Source: Bacteroidales bacterium
GTDB lineage: Bacteria > Bacteroidota > Bacteroidia > Bacteroidales > UBA3824
DNA length: 64,000 nt
Assembly (NCBI GenBank): GCA_016286055.1
Contig: JAEERW010000005.1
Coordinates: 1 to 64,000 of the forward strand
Reading direction: 5' to 3'
Part shown: positions 1,801 through 41,656 of the stretch, piece by piece
Layout of the letters: each line of letters begins with the position of its first letter
How positions within the stretch are numbered: position 1 is the first letter of the stretch
Program-made: the position numbers and the translations under genes
The notes under the pieces: generated by a model
What the model saw: only the letters and a program-made list of their open reading frames with translations
Database searches by the model: none
Told to the model about the DNA's origin: nothing

Positions 1801-1957
1801 AATAGATTAAATAGCAAACGCTAATGTTATAATATGTCGTTAATTATGTTATCTATTTCATTAATACAAAGTTTGTTGTTTAACAAATTGTTTTGTTGCA
1901 ATAGTGCAATGCAAAGGTAGGAAATAATTGGGATTGTGCAAAAAAAATTCAAAGTTT

Positions 1958-3307
1958 TCAAAGCATTTCTTTAAATGTGTTGACGTTATGTTCAATAAAC
2001 ATAACGTAATAAATAGGTAAATACAAAATTTTGCCCTTGTTTTTTGTTTCACGGGCATTTGAAAATACTATGCCTTTTTTTATGCCGTATTCATCGTTGT
2101 TGACAAACATATTCAGTGCACTGTGAACATAGTAATCTTTGCCCGATTTCACTTCTATTGGCACAACTGACAACGAATCAAAATCATCGATTAGGAAATC
2201 AACTTCGCCGCTTTTTTTGTTGTCGTAATAGTATAAATGGAAGCCGTGAGCGTTAAGTTCTTGTGCTACAACTGATTCGTAAACAGTTCCAAGGTTGAGG
2301 CTGAGTTCGTCGTCCAATATGGCTCTGATATTGTATTGGTACAGCAAGGATGTGAGTATTCCCACGTCGTTGAGATATAGTTTCAACAAGTTTTTTTTGA
2401 CAGACTGCAACAAGGGGAATCGCGGATTGCTGATAGCATCCACCTGCAAGGCTATTCCTGACTGTACCAAATAATCAAATTCGTTTTCATAATCAGAAAA
2501 CTGTTTGCCTTGTTTGTTTTCTATCTTGCTGACAATCACACGTTTTTTTCGACTTTCGAGGTTTGAAGGTATCAAGTCGTAAACTCTTCTTATTTTCAGT
2601 TTTTGCTGACGGTCGTACTGCGAAGCATCAATACCATAAAGCGTATGCACGTCGTTTTGTATATCGCGCATCATCTGTATATTCTTGTCTTCCAAAAACT
2701 TGTTGACGGCATCGGGCAAACCGCCGGTAAGCAAATAATATCGGAACAGACGCATAAAATGATTGTGCAACGGTTCTGTTATCGGTTCGCCTTTGCTATA
2801 CTGCATTCGTGCCAATTCGATAACATCTTTGCCAACCCCCATTGCCCAAAAAAATTCTTCCATATCCAAAGGATACATTTGTTTTATCATCACGCTGCCC
2901 AACGGAACAGATGGGGTTTGCGATAATGCAATACCAAGTTGCGAACCACTGGCAATAAATGTATATCGTTGGTCTTGATTAAGGAATTTGAGCAACGTGA
3001 GCAATTGAGGATACACTTGTATCTCGTCGAGAAAAATAAGCGTGTCGCTCTTAGTCCCCAAACGATTACCGAATATGGCACTAAGTTGCATATAGAAAGA
3101 ATCGAGTCCTGTTACTTGGGCAAACAAACGATCTTTCTCGCTATCTGCCCTGAGGTCAATCTCGATATAATTCTTAAACAACTTGCTACATACATACCTG
3201 ATAATAAAAGACTTACCAATCTGTCTTGCTCCATTCACAAGTAGTATCTTGTTTTGCTGTGCAGAGAAATAATTCTCCAAGAAATATGAAAATTTACGTT
3301 CTAACAT
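1958..3307 (-). CDS. AAA+ ATPase with C-terminal DUF4143 (PD-(D/E)xK-like) domain, copy 1
   Basis: A 449-residue protein of the large AAA_14/DUF4143 family. It has Walker A GARQIGKS (26-33), Walker B LIFLDEIQ (90-97) and a sensor-like IASGSQLG (about 118-125). The C-terminal third carries the nuclease-fold signature GEVDFLID followed by PIEVKSG (D...ExK). The biochemical role of these proteins is not established; they resemble NTPase/nuclease modules and are often multicopy in Bacteroidales. It is divergent from copy 2 (3550-4851), and both promoters sit in one repeat-filled control region. A clear promoter (TTG 3358-3360, TATATTTG 3330-3337) supports the start at 3307. The family call is firm; the function is unknown. 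Confidence 0.85.
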   Translation of the reverse strand: MLERKFSYFLENYFSAQQNKILLVNGARQIGKSFIIRYVCSKLFKNYIEIDLRADSEKDRLFAQVTGLDSFYMQLSAIFGNRLGTKSDTLIFLDEIQVYPQLLTLLKFLNQDQRYTFIASGSQLGIALSQTPSVPLGSVMIKQMYPLDMEEFFWAMGVGKDVIELARMQYSKGEPITEPLHNHFMRLFRYYLLTGGLPDAVNKFLEDKNIQMMRDIQNDVHTLYGIDASQYDRQQKLKIRRVYDLIPSNLESRKKRVIVSKIENKQGKQFSDYENEFDYLVQSGIALQVDAISNPRFPLLQSVKKNLLKLYLNDVGILTSLLYQYNIRAILDDELSLNLGTVYESVVAQELNAHGFHLYYYDNKKSGEVDFLIDDFDSLSVVPIEVKSGKDYYVHSALNMFVNNDEYGIKKGIVFSNARETKNKGKILYLPIYYVMFIEHNVNTFKEML

Positions 3308-3329
3308 AACTTCAAAATTTATTGTGCTG

Positions 3330-3360
3330 CAAATATATTGATTTTTAATTTATTAAACAA
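3330..3360 (-). promoter_or_regulatory. Promoter of ATPase copy 1
   Basis: Reading the minus strand, TTG (3358-3360), 20 bases, then TATATTTG (3330-3337) followed by C. This matches the Bacteroidetes TTTG/TAnnTTTG promoter. The proximal edge of the 33-bp phased repeats (3367) lies only 6 bases upstream of the -33 box. Confidence 0.65.
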
Positions 3361-3366
3361 CAGTTT

Positions 3367-3446
3367 GTCATTTTTTCCATATTTTTTTGGGGTGATTTTG
3401 TCATTTTTTCCATAAAAAATAAGGGTAATTTTGTCATTTTTTCCAT
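3367..3446 (-). repeat. Three direct repeats at exact 33-bp spacing, minus orientation
   Basis: The 14-mer ATGGAAAAAATGAC (minus strand) occurs identically at 3367-3380, 3400-3413 and 3433-3446, so the period is exactly 33 bp. The 19-bp intervals differ, although the segments GGGTGATTTT and GGGTAATTTT before units 2 and 3 are also related. On the minus strand each unit reads in frame as MEKMT followed by K or N with an 11-residue period. The array sits directly upstream of the promoter of ATPase copy 1 and continues in register with the opposite-facing array at 3466. Confidence 0.9.
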
Positions 3447-3465
3447 ATTTGTAGAACTATACTTT

Positions 3466-3546
3466 CTGCAAAAAGTTACTAAAAATCCCTTGCAAATGCT
3501 GCAAAAAGTTACTAAATTTGCATCGAAAACACTGCAAAAAGTTACT
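3466..3546 (+). repeat. Three direct repeats at exact 33-bp spacing, plus orientation
   Basis: The 15-mer CTGCAAAAAGTTACT occurs identically at 3466-3480, 3499-3513 and 3532-3546. The first begins exactly 33 bp after the last unit of the opposing array (3433), so all six units are in one 33-bp register. The plus-strand unit (TGCAAAAAGTTACTAAA) and the minus-strand unit (TGGAAAAAATGACAAAA) agree at 13 of 17 positions, so they look like diverged copies of one repeat facing outward. Here the unit encodes LQKVT(K) in frame with ATPase copy 2. Confidence 0.9.
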
Positions 3547-3549
3547 GCG

Positions 3550-4851
3550 ATGATATTTAAACGAAAGATATTCAAAGATATAGAGCGTTGGAACAAAAAT
3601 TGTAAAAATGAGGCTCTGTTAATAAAAGGTGCGCGGCAGGTGGGCAAAACCACGGCGGTGCGCGAGTTCGCCCGTGCCAATTATACTAATTTCGTGGAAA
3701 TCAACTTTGAACAGAATCCCGAGGCGAAACAGGCTTTTGCCGGAAGCCGCGATGCCAACACCGTGATACAGCGGCTCAGCCTTATGGGCTACGGACCTTT
3801 TGTGCCGGGCAAGACCCTCGTTTTTTTTGACGAAATCCAAAGTTGTCCCGATGCTCGTACCGCGATTAAATTTTTGGCGGAGGACGGACGGTTTCAATAC
3901 ATAGAATCGGGTTCGCTGTTGGGCATCAATTACAAAGATGTAAGTAGTTATCCCGTAGGTTTTGAAAGTCAAATAGAAATGTACCCGCTTGATTTTGAGG
4001 AGTTTCTATGGGCAAAGGGAGTGTCAATGGATACAGTGGATAATGTAAAGCGTACATTAACGGAACTTAGGCGCGTGGACGATTTTACGCATGAAATTCT
4101 GATGAAACATTACAGAGAATACCTTGTGGTGGGCGGTATGCCTAAGGTTGTTTCTACATTTTTGACTAACAGCGACTTCAACGAAACACTGCGTCAGCAA
4201 AAAATTATTACAGACAGTTACCGGCTCGACATTTCTAAATACGCCGGAGCACAGAAAACGAGGGCAAAAAGGTTTTTCGATGCCATTCCGTCGCAACTCG
4301 CCAAGGAGCGCAAACGCTTCATACTCTCCGACTTAGAGGCAAGCGGCAGTATGCAGAAATATGAGGATTCGGCACAATGGCTTGCCGATGCAGGCGTGGC
4401 ATATTTTAGTTACAACACGCACTCGTTGCAAATGCCATTTGAACAATACGAAAACCGCAACTTGTTTAAAGTTTATCTTTTAGACACGGGGTTGTTGTGT
4501 TCGCTGTGGAGCGGCACAATTCAATGGGAAGTGATGCAGGGCAACATTTCTGTCAACGAAGGTGCGCTTACCGAAAATTTTGTTGCCGCCGAACTTGTAA
4601 AACACGGGCACACGCTCCACTATTACGACAACAAAAGCCGCAACGAACTCGATTTTCTTATCCGTGAAAAGAAATTTGTAACCATCTTGGAAATCAAATC
4701 GGGTAGCGACTATAAAAAACACGCCTCGCTAAACAATATTCTCGAAACCTCTGCCGACACCATTGAGCGCAGTATCGTCCTCTGCCGTGGAAATGTAGAA
4801 AAATACGGTGATATTGTGTACCTACCGCTGTATGCGGCGGGATTTTTGTAG
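3550..4851 (+). CDS. AAA+ ATPase with C-terminal DUF4143 domain, copy 2
   Basis: A 433-residue protein of the same family as its divergent neighbour. It has Walker A GARQVGKT (27-34), Walker B LVFFDEIQ, sensor-like IESGSLLG, and a C-terminal NELDFLIREKKF...ILEIKSGSDYKKH nuclease-fold signature. ATG at 3550 (MIFKRKIF) is chosen because it aligns with the starts of the other two ATPases. The frame stays open upstream through all six 33-bp repeat units back to about 3349, so a TTG (3490) or ATG (3496) start adding LQKVTK repeats cannot be excluded. A candidate promoter, TTG 3490-3492 with TAAATTTG 3513-3520, would favour 3550. Function unknown. Confidence 0.85.
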   Translation: MIFKRKIFKDIERWNKNCKNEALLIKGARQVGKTTAVREFARANYTNFVEINFEQNPEAKQAFAGSRDANTVIQRLSLMGYGPFVPGKTLVFFDEIQSCPDARTAIKFLAEDGRFQYIESGSLLGINYKDVSSYPVGFESQIEMYPLDFEEFLWAKGVSMDTVDNVKRTLTELRRVDDFTHEILMKHYREYLVVGGMPKVVSTFLTNSDFNETLRQQKIITDSYRLDISKYAGAQKTRAKRFFDAIPSQLAKERKRFILSDLEASGSMQKYEDSAQWLADAGVAYFSYNTHSLQMPFEQYENRNLFKVYLLDTGLLCSLWSGTIQWEVMQGNISVNEGALTENFVAAELVKHGHTLHYYDNKSRNELDFLIREKKFVTILEIKSGSDYKKHASLNNILETSADTIERSIVLCRGNVEKYGDIVYLPLYAAGFL

Positions 4852-4859
4852 AAAGATGA

Positions 4860-4889
4860 TTGTATTTTTGCAAAATTTTTCTATATTTG
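4860..4889 (+). promoter_or_regulatory. Promoter of the NADAR gene
   Basis: TTG (4860-4862), 19 bases, TATATTTG (4882-4889) followed by C. This is a near-ideal Bacteroidetes promoter. It excludes the upstream in-frame starts and fixes translation at 4917. Confidence 0.75.
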
Positions 4890-4916
4890 CATTGTAAACA
4901 ATTAACACCTACAATT

Positions 4917-5894
4917 ATGAATACAGTAATCTTGTTTTGGAATCCGGATATTTCGAGTTTTAAATACGACGATTGGGAATCTTCCATTAGGAATATTAAT
5001 ACCGAAACCTTCAATTGGAGTGTTTGGGAACACGAAAAGGCAAGGAAGGGCGACAAATTTTACCTCGTAAAGTGCGGCGGGGAACGCAACAATGGTATCT
5101 GTATGAGCGGACATTTCATCTCCGACCCATACCTCGGCGAAGATTGGTCGGGCAAGGGGCGCGAGGTCTATTATATGGATATGAAAATCGATGTTGCCAT
5201 CAATCCTAAGTATTTCCCTGTGTTAACGTCGGAAGAATTGCAAAAGGTGTTCCCCGAATTTGATTGGACGGGCGGACATTCGGGACGAATTTTGCCGAAT
5301 ATTTACTCGCCGGATAGCCTTTGGAGAAAGTTTATAGAAAATAATATGCGTGTTTTTGAGCAACAGACATATCTTGACACATCCATATTAAAAAAATACA
5401 CCCGCGAGGATTTCGTGTTCTTTTGGCACGAATATCCGCACGACCCTGTTCAGAAAACCTGCCTGAGCCAATGGTACGCCTGCAATTTTTGCGTTTCGGG
5501 CATAGAATATTTCACCACCGAGCAATATATGATGGCTTCAAAGGCTTTGTTGTTCAAGGATTTGAATATTTATCAACAGATATTCCAAGCCAAAACTCCA
5601 CAAGAGTTTAAGAATTTGGGCAAATTAGTGAAAAACTATGACGATGCCGTTTGGAATCTACACAAAGACCGCATTGTCGTCGAAGGTAACTACGCAAAAT
5701 TCTCTCAAAATCCCGCATTGAAGAACTTTTTGCTCTCTACCGGCAACAAAATTTTGGCTGAGGCAAGTCCCTACGATAAGATTTGGGGCATTGGACTTGA
5801 AGAATCCGACGACCGCGTTCTCGACCCTGCGCAATGGCAAGGCGAAAACCATCTCGGATTTGCATTGATGAAGGTAAGGGATATGCTGAGATAG
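4917..5894 (+). CDS. PUA/EVE-like domain fused to NADAR domain
   Basis: A 325-residue two-domain protein. The C-terminal half (about 165-325) is a NADAR (YbiA/DUF1768) domain: EYFTTEQYMMASKA, the GNYAKFSQNP segment (about 257-266), STGNKILAEASPYD and IWGIGL, ending in LGFALMKVRDML. NADAR enzymes cleave N-glycosidic bonds; some remove ADP-ribose from guanine in DNA and act as antitoxins. The N-terminal half (1-140) has ILFWNP, GDKFYL and GICMSGHF motifs and looks like an EVE/ASCH-type PUA fold that could read a modified base, which is inference. It is single-gene, convergent with recF, and sits beside restriction and ATPase genes. The NADAR call is firm; the N-terminal call is tentative. Confidence 0.85.
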   Translation: MNTVILFWNPDISSFKYDDWESSIRNINTETFNWSVWEHEKARKGDKFYLVKCGGERNNGICMSGHFISDPYLGEDWSGKGREVYYMDMKIDVAINPKYFPVLTSEELQKVFPEFDWTGGHSGRILPNIYSPDSLWRKFIENNMRVFEQQTYLDTSILKKYTREDFVFFWHEYPHDPVQKTCLSQWYACNFCVSGIEYFTTEQYMMASKALLFKDLNIYQQIFQAKTPQEFKNLGKLVKNYDDAVWNLHKDRIVVEGNYAKFSQNPALKNFLLSTGNKILAEASPYDKIWGIGLEESDDRVLDPAQWQGENHLGFALMKVRDMLR

Positions 5895-5895
5895 T

Positions 5896-40080: not shown

Positions 40081-40181
40081 TGATAGAAAGTTACAGTTTC
40101 GACGTGCCTCATTTGGAAAATCGGCGTAAACTTTTCAAGCGAAAAACGGACGGTGGATGAGTGGGTGATATGGAAATAATG

Positions 40182-40321: not shown

Positions 40322-41656
40322 ATGGAGTATATATTTCAACGTAAAATATATGAGCAAATTAGTCAGTGGAAACGCGAAAATGCGGGGCGCAGCGCATTGC
40401 TTATTGAAGGTGCTCGGCGTATTGGCAAATCCACCATTGTTGAAGAGTTCGCAAAAAAGGAATACAAATCGTATATCCTAATTGACTTCATCAAAGCCTC
40501 TGAGCGCGTCAAATCGTTGTTTAACGATTTGATGGACTTGGATTACCTATTTCTATTCCTACAAAGTGCCTATCATACAACGCTTTATCAGCGAGAATCG
40601 TTAATTATCTTCGACGAAGTTCAAAAATGTCCTATGGCTCGTCAGGCTATAAAATACTTGGTGCAGGACGGACGGTATGATTACATAGAAACAGGTTCGC
40701 TCATCAGCATCAAACAGCACACAGAAAACATCACCATACCAAGCGAAGAAGATAGATTGGAAATGTTTCCGATGGATTACGAGGAGTACCGTTGGGCGAT
40801 GGGCGACACTGCGACAATTCCATTATTGAAGAAACAATTGGAGAGTGGACGCTCAATGGGCGACGACATCAATAGGCAATATATGCGCGACTTGCGACTG
40901 TATATGCTTGTTGGCGGTATGCCGCAGGTTGTCAGCGAATATCTTAAAACTAAAAATCTCCGCTCGGTTGACACAATGAAACGTAAGATACTCAATCTTT
41001 ACTTCGATGACTTCCGCAAAATTGACAAGACAGGCAAGATAGGTAAATTGTACGCAGCCATTCCCGCAATGCTATCGCACGGCGTGGGACGTTTTTATCC
41101 TACATCAGTAATCAAGGGCGTGGGAGCCGACAAAATGATGGATTTGTTGATAGCCTTGGAAGACAGCAAAACTGTTAACATTGCCTACCATTGCACCGAC
41201 CCTCAGGTTGGGCTACCGTTGAGCGAAGATCGCAGCCGTCAGAAAATTTACGTAGGCGACACGGGACTGATGGTAACACTTGCTTTTTGGGACAAGAAAT
41301 TCGCCGAAAATATTTTGTACGACAAGTTGCTTACCGATAAACTCCCTGCCAACCTCGGATATATATATGAGAATTTGGCAGCGCAGATGCTTTGCAGCAA
41401 CGGCAACAGATTGTATTTTTACACTTGGCCAAAAGATGAAAGACACAACTACGAAATTGACTTTTTGCTTTCGCGAGGAGCAAAGGTCTGTCCTTTGGAA
41501 ATAAAATCGTCTAACCATAAAAATCACGTGTCGCTTGACACGTTTTGCGAAAAATTCTCGTCTCGCATAGCCAATAGGTATTTGGTCTGCTCCAAAGATC
41601 TCAGATTAGACGGCAAGACGACAATCCTGCCTATTTATATGACTGGATTGATTTGA
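40322..41656 (+). CDS. AAA+ ATPase with C-terminal DUF4143 domain, copy 3
   Basis: A 444-residue relative of the two ATPases at 2-4.9 kb. It has Walker A GARRIGKS (30-37), Walker B SLIIFDEVQKCP, sensor-like IETGSLISI, and C-terminal NYEIDFLLSRGAKVCPLEIKS with the D...ExK pattern. It lies between an intact M43 protease gene and a broken duplicate of that gene, in the opposite direction, so it looks inserted as a cassette. The start MEYIFQRKI aligns with the other copies. Family certain, biological role unknown. Confidence 0.85.
   Translation: MEYIFQRKIYEQISQWKRENAGRSALLIEGARRIGKSTIVEEFAKKEYKSYILIDFIKASERVKSLFNDLMDLDYLFLFLQSAYHTTLYQRESLIIFDEVQKCPMARQAIKYLVQDGRYDYIETGSLISIKQHTENITIPSEEDRLEMFPMDYEEYRWAMGDTATIPLLKKQLESGRSMGDDINRQYMRDLRLYMLVGGMPQVVSEYLKTKNLRSVDTMKRKILNLYFDDFRKIDKTGKIGKLYAAIPAMLSHGVGRFYPTSVIKGVGADKMMDLLIALEDSKTVNIAYHCTDPQVGLPLSEDRSRQKIYVGDTGLMVTLAFWDKKFAENILYDKLLTDKLPANLGYIYENLAAQMLCSNGNRLYFYTWPKDERHNYEIDFLLSRGAKVCPLEIKSSNHKNHVSLDTFCEKFSSRIANRYLVCSKDLRLDGKTTILPIYMTGLI

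Follow-up and report, generated by a model that had tools for sequence, protein, structure and literature searches.

The window, a 64,000-nucleotide (64 kb) stretch of a Bacteroidales contig, contains two divergent genes that each encode an AAA_14+DUF4143 ATPase. The genes are separated by a gap of 242 bp that holds two arrays of three units each. The start of the plus gene was set at 3550, as the alignment of its relatives begins at that methionine. Promoter boxes were assigned by match to TAnnTTTG, which we take to be the consensus of the Bacteroidetes-type -7 promoter box. The features were placed as follows.

1948..3462, minus strand: minus cassette (array plus gene), missing from locus L020 of genome G003 by comparison with L020
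1958..3307, minus strand: AAA_14+DUF4143 ATPase (minus gene), 449 aa, by Pfam and PADLOC PDC-S01
3330..3337, minus strand: putative -7 promoter box of the minus gene, TATATTTG, a sequence match with no mapped start
3364..3380, minus strand: minus-array unit closest to the gene, ATGGAAAAAATGACAAA, exact copy
3397..3413, minus strand: minus-array unit 2, ATGGAAAAAATGACAAA, exact copy
3430..3446, minus strand: outermost minus-array unit, ATGGAAAAAATGACAAA, exact copy
3463..4854, plus strand: plus cassette (array plus gene), a block common with L020 at 98%
3466..3480, plus strand: outermost plus-array unit, CTGCAAAAAGTTACT, exact copy
3499..3513, plus strand: plus-array unit 2, CTGCAAAAAGTTACT, its final base being the first base of the -7 box
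3513..3520, plus strand: putative -7 promoter box of the plus gene, TAAATTTG, a sequence match that relatives place alike
3532..3546, plus strand: plus-array unit 3, CTGCAAAAAGTTACT, between the -7 box and the start codon, exact copy
3550..4851, plus strand: AAA_14+DUF4143 ATPase (plus gene), 433 aa, by Pfam and PADLOC PDC-S01
4867..4916, plus strand: promoter of the NADAR gene with degenerate ATPase-type units, from a by-eye comparison with locus L022
4917..5894, plus strand: NADAR-domain protein, 325 aa, PADLOC PDC-M42C, not in L020
40181..40260, plus strand: third array of the window, three similar TCGGGGAGAGATAG-type units starting at 40181, 40214 and 40247, spacing 33
40322..41656, plus strand: gene for a third DUF4143 ATPase, domain matched at 41009-41512, ends taken from the open frame

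On the forward strand the minus array reads as GTCATTTTTTCCAT at 3367, 3400 and 3433 (minus-sense ATGGAAAAAATGAC). A sequence-only reading of this DNA had described six repeats spaced at 33 bp, and both the coordinates and the spacing were correct, with each copy exact within its array. The two unit types had been said to match at 13 of 17 positions when read outward, and recounting gave 12 of 17, with the third plus copy matching at 10 of 17. The single register proposed through all six units exists for their left-hand coordinates but not for the units themselves, which face opposite ways; because the minus and plus units are oppositely oriented, the step from 3433 to 3466 is not a like-for-like distance. 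Divergence of one repeat in two directions fits insofar as the two proteins share distant homology, at 34% identity, and have related units, but the arrays are separate. The minus array was not found in the L020 DNA examined, although the plus array was present there. TRF detected both arrays (period 33, scores 118 and 106). Only in the two-array region of the 64 kb window did a self-match at lag 31-34 reach a score of 15; the third array scored below it.

Both ATPases matched Pfam AAA_14 and DUF4143 above cut-off, and both matched the PADLOC PDC-S01 model PDLC04792 over nearly their full length (E 7e-172 and 1e-157). No NCBIfam family was above cut-off for either protein. PDC-S01 ATPases are presumably those also named COG1373. 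The predicted structure (mean pLDDT 90) contained an AAA core, a section at 233-310 and a C-terminal part. This section was modeled as helices at 233-250 and 268-281 followed by strands at 284-290 and 301-310, and the two helices and two strands of the model were read as a winged helix. Residues E381 and K383 were invariant in 55 sequences and an ExD...ExK-like regular expression matched 21 of the 40 proteins from the window's own genome; acidic and E-x-K residues of the PD-(D/E)XK superfamily were present, and the protein is a putative nuclease. Foldseek listed Apaf-1, Orc1/Cdc6, RuvB, clamp loaders (RFC), MuB and STAND defence proteins. The query-normalised TM was low throughout (0.21-0.39 among the 50 matches listed), none of these being a close match over the whole chain. 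A sequence search against solved structures returned no relative (best E 0.67). PMC12988326 describes PDC-S01 as a fusion of an ATPase domain with a PD-(D/E)-X-K member and as the fourth most common defence entry across prokaryotes, and it gives experimental validation as pending for most such defence candidates. In a survey of rumen genomes, PMC13356809, no individual locus was found more often than PDC-S01. The words promoter, operator, direct repeat, tandem repeat and autoregulat- do not occur in either text.

Recurrence of the array was assessed in a species-genome collection, where the plus protein had 214 relatives and the best 80 of them were used. About 220 bp upstream was read for 78 of these, the other two lying too close to a contig end. 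A self-match at lag 31-34 with a score of at least 12 was found in 57 of the 78 relatives from other genomes. In the window's own genome (G000), 37 of the 40 DUF4143 matches were analyzable and 3 were not, and the same periodicity was present upstream of 32 of the 37. Control genes from the same loci gave 14 of 217, which fell to 3 of 206 after removal of six genes that share the focal upstream region and five DUF4143 ATPases (four by Pfam, one look-alike). The 12 control genes with a best lag of 31-34 and a score of at least 12 comprised six that share the focal upstream region, four that are AAA_14+DUF4143 by Pfam, one that is likely so by its P-loop, and thiC. Neighboring lag bands were represented in at most 2 of 78 relatives and in none of the 37 own paralogues. 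When the 80 loci were scanned whole, with low-complexity stretches excluded and a score of at least 18 required, 38 of 42 matches at lag 31-34 lay at ATPase P-loop genes as compared to 0/2, 0/3 and 0/3 in the other lag bands (8 matches in total). The sequence-only reading had let its proposal depend on enrichment of 33-bp periodicity upstream of other DUF4143 genes, and relative to control genes the enrichment was strong. A chance origin of the repeats was rejected as 10 of 600 shuffles reached a score of 12 at any lag from 14 to 60. The same score within this range of lags was attained upstream of 58 of the 78 relatives and 36 of the 37 own paralogues, and upstream of 32 of the 217 controls before cleaning.

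Relatives of the minus protein were drawn from 149 genomes of the order. Eight of the 11 in other genomes had a best lag of 32-33 (scores 11 to 21, part of the score of L227 coming from a repeat farther upstream). The other three had a different best lag, with L232 showing repeated GGAAAAAAGC-type units by eye. Relatives on viral contigs had a lag of 32-33 with a score of at least 12 in 12 of the 22 examined, near duplicates counted.

The 33-bp array is not universal and looks like a trait of one large branch of the family, as judged from the loci sampled. At a score of 12 it was absent from 5 of the 37 own paralogues and 21 of the 78 relatives, and only 4 of 25 resolved DUF4143 loci with the best Pfam scores in a phylum sample of 61 genomes had an array at lag 31-34. 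Across the phylum, DUF4143 proteins of about 390 residues (L192-L218) often had one dyad, or repeats of 22 bp, close to the start codon in place of the 33-bp array, seen by eye only. The number of DUF4143 matches was 40 in the 4.18 Mb of G000 and ranged from 0 to 16 in the other 60 genomes of this sample. Two low-scoring matches to the DUF4143 model in G000, L143 and L144, had upstream repeats at lags 51 and 53, not 33. At L094 (3113-3298) it is thiC, not a DUF4143 ATPase gene, that follows a 33-bp array; the units are of the TTGACTTTGTG type and the array scores 80.5. This array may be a remnant or may belong to another regulator. At L057, nine copies of TGCAATAATCCACCA (up to 2 mismatches), mostly 32 bp apart, were found about 195-450 bp upstream of the ATPase start. 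Inverted repeats in the last 110 bp (score at least 9) were detected in 17 of 37 own paralogues, 7 of 78 relatives and 29 of 217 controls, and were rejected as a common feature since dyads were enriched among the own paralogues only.

Conservation was compared across eight arrays (the window, L020 and L022-L027). The units were 93-100% identical, the inter-unit bases were 41-82% identical with near-identical pairs left out, and third codon positions were 44-66% identical where compared. From these alignments the arrays are evidently under selection. The same comparison bears on the readings of the repeat as coding sequence for an 11-residue repeat or leader peptide, or as a minimal, CRISPR-like repeat-spacer array, both raised by the sequence-only reading and both extremely unlikely. 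Frames are open across the arrays on both strands, as had been noted and as a coding repeat would have it, but they appear incidental as the period is 32 bp in many relatives and in 8 of the 37 own paralogues, and the inter-unit sequence drifts while the units do not. The leader peptide fails on these two points. The intervals of a CRISPR-like array should be acquired spacers; here the inter-unit bases can be aligned between close relatives and contain the promoter box, and a search of viral contigs with the paired-unit pattern of the plus type gave 0 matches.

The units of the own paralogues were also compared with one another. Nearest-neighbor similarity among the 37 units had a mean of 9.38 of 14 and a maximum of 12, as compared to 8.61 for shuffled letters. 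By this comparison the units are weakly related with little sharing, though not fully independent, and most paralogues appear to have a unit of their own. For the plus unit, the minus unit and the unit of one further paralogue, exact copies occurred only in the own array within the 4.18 Mb genome. Matches outside the array with at most 2 mismatches in 15 were found at 6 of 80 loci (L022, L043, L051, L057, L073 and L084), those at L022 being a second promoter and those at L057 more of its own array. Unit similarity tracked protein identity (Mantel r 0.588, reached in 0 of 2000 permutations, with a unit in 43 of 55 rows), and the units in this respect follow the ancestry of the proteins. The correlation is compatible with co-evolution and also with plain co-inheritance. 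Partial correlations between unit and domain were 0.16 for the winged helix, 0.14 for AAA, 0.07 for the middle and -0.02 for the REase part, singling out none of the four as the domain that reads the unit. A host or global regulator might bind the arrays in place of the encoded ATPase, which we consider very unlikely: the unit differs in most paralogues and many dedicated regulators would be required, and related units accompany related ATPases in assemblies labeled Bacteroidales, Oscillospiraceae, Spirochaetes, Chitinispirillia and Euryarchaeota, bin labels that may be wrong.

The position of the units relative to the promoter was evaluated in L020-L053, 34 loci that all have an array score of at least 9. 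A TAnnTTTG box was present within 130 bp of the start in 28 of the 34 and absent in six. In all 28 box-bearing relatives the box start kept an equal 33-bp phase with the unit ends, within -2 to +7 bp, and in L029, L032, L039 and L042 the box lay one period upstream of the first detected unit. The minus gene has its box (3330-3337) downstream of the array, ahead of the start codon. A promoter of the form TTGACA-17-TATTAT was read in L077, from a Lachnospiraceae genome, and its TTGACA is overlapped by a unit. The arrays are repeated sites under selection that overlap the promoter of the gene they precede, the promoter boxes being sequence matches. A protein bound to the plus units would cover the core promoter, making repression the first guess. 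A multi-site operator had been among the possibilities offered by the sequence-only reading, and the selected units, their fixed phase to the promoter box, the recurrence at DUF4143 genes and the 33-bp enrichment all support it.

Gain and loss of the cassettes was followed by comparing the window with related loci. Homology to L020, the closest relative, had edges at 1947, 3463, 4854 and 5896, so that the plus cassette begins 3 bp outside its outermost unit and ends 3 bp past the stop codon, or 6 bp past it with different BLAST settings. L020 is without the minus cassette (1948-3462), where it has a short unrelated stretch, and without the NADAR gene (4855-5895). Genomes G001 and G006 share the left flank with the window up to 1946 and then carry another gene. 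The block common to L022 and the window runs from 3465 to 5893, no further. At a second locus, L131, the cassette is absent from G012 and homology resumes 6 bp outside the outermost unit, while on the other side it ends about 380 bp beyond the end of the gene; in the comparison with G003 neither edge is at the cassette ends. In place of the L131 cassette, a different gene is found in G012; in G003 the slot is filled by two TA-like genes, which to us look like HigB/HigA, and a further gene. A clean empty site was not found at either L020 or L131. The proposed comparison of copy number yielded one case, L021 with two units and L022 with three, in which the lost period takes the box along (by eye). 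These are metagenome assemblies and single turnover cases may be assembly faults.

These edges also relate to a reading in which the cassette replicates or moves by means of its array, which would act in cis like an iteron or a transposon end, with the ATPase as an initiator or transposition helper and promoter control secondary. Array and gene forming one block in L020, the limits of the block in L022, and the Orc1/Cdc6, RuvB, RFC and MuB matches listed by Foldseek all favor such a role, as do units downstream of the gene, two direct in L022 and one CTGCAAAAAGTTT about 90 bp downstream of the ATPase gene in L025, L026 and L027. However, no inverted copy was found in the 120 bp downstream of the ATPases of L020-L027 or of the window, three of the four L131 edges were off the cassette ends with other genes in the slot, and the fixed phase to the -7 box points to transcription. 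The downstream copies in L022 are two ATPase-type units (2 and 1 mismatches in 15) that lie over the NADAR promoter and cover the NADAR start, which is promoter-like. We consider a primary role in replication or movement quite unlikely. A shared partner gene was not recognized behind L025-L027, where the first long ORFs differ. The NADAR protein carries an extra N-terminal part in the window (4867-5894) and in L022.

The gene neighborhood is relevant to a further alternative, a sensor or decoy in which the ATPase-nuclease is parked on its array and is released or activated when an invader alters or titrates the binding, giving an antiphage switch. Neighbors of the two ATPases include a type I methyltransferase-like gene and NADAR, and the PDC-S01 match of both proteins, a defence candidate, and the invariance of E381 and K383 are in line with this function. 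Against it, the viral contigs contained no match to the paired plus-type units, and since the arrays are mostly private, there would hardly be common DNA sites through which a single invader signal could work. A switch of this kind is distinctly improbable.

The explanation that we consider probable, based on the sequence comparisons, is autoregulation: each ATPase would recognize the array in front of its gene and regulate transcription from that promoter, most likely by repression. We infer that the encoded ATPase is the protein that binds, that it does so through the winged helix, and that the outcome is repression over activation. Each DUF4143 ATPase would be encoded with a tandem array of its own candidate binding sites, most often two to four in number and separated by about three turns of the helix, a spacing that would put all of the sites on the same face of the DNA. 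From N to C terminus the protein combines an AAA core, a winged-helix-like part and a PD-(D/E)XK-like part. Within the core promoter of the plus gene and of its relatives one unit directly precedes the -7 box, and the ATPase would bind the array cooperatively and hold its own promoter low. A neighboring gene would sometimes come under the same units, as NADAR may in L022. Since most paralogues appear to have their own unit, dozens could coexist in one genome without cross-talk, and array and gene could be gained or lost together. Autoregulation of this kind could be extended to a more ambitious proposal, which we hold to be unlikely, that PDC-S01 proteins are highly diversified DNA-binding machines that are self-addressed. 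One genome would contain up to dozens of mutually orthogonal pairs of protein and array, and each pair would be portable as a one-gene cassette. The protein would form an ATP-dependent oligomer on its 33-bp array that both silences the promoter and restrains the nuclease, and loss of this oligomer would trigger defence.

No description of these arrays was found in the literature searched, which consisted mostly of titles and the starts of abstracts with subscription papers and preprints outside its scope. A private array gives each ATPase a likely DNA site that can be read from sequence, making binding, control and orthogonality testable at once, and it provides a sequence signature for annotation. 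One genome may supply a natural library of dozens of protein-operator pairs, and the ATPases with arrays appear to form a large branch of a huge and little-tested family.

Among known systems, the closest assignment is to PDC-S01 itself, the candidate single-gene phage defence defined in PADLOC, whose models both window proteins match nearly full length. Plasmids with iterons carry tandem direct repeats adjoining the gene of the encoded DNA-binding initiator. The ATPase loci resemble them in having tandem direct repeats beside a gene, here one of initiator-like fold, that are probably bound by the encoded protein; unlike iterons, arrays of the window type occur by the dozens in a genome and are in phase with the -7 box. 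Archaeal Orc1/Cdc6 proteins combine AAA+ with a winged helix and have origin-recognition boxes. The ATPases are similar in their AAA and winged-helix-like parts, and Orc1/Cdc6 in complex with origin DNA was among the best Foldseek matches, but the TM was low, the ATPases have a PD-(D/E)XK-like part and each paralogue mostly has a private array. The operators of autoregulated toxin-antitoxin systems are private, overlap the promoter and are present in many copies per genome, each being one palindrome. The ATPase arrays are likewise private, promoter-overlapping and many per genome. They differ in serving a single gene, with 33-bp direct tandem units in place of one palindrome, and no antitoxin partner was seen, as each array in the window precedes one ATPase gene and NADAR is what lies behind the plus ATPase. 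On this comparison we rate the arrays as probably of the autoregulatory-operator kind, the surprising part being that dozens of them occur in one genome.
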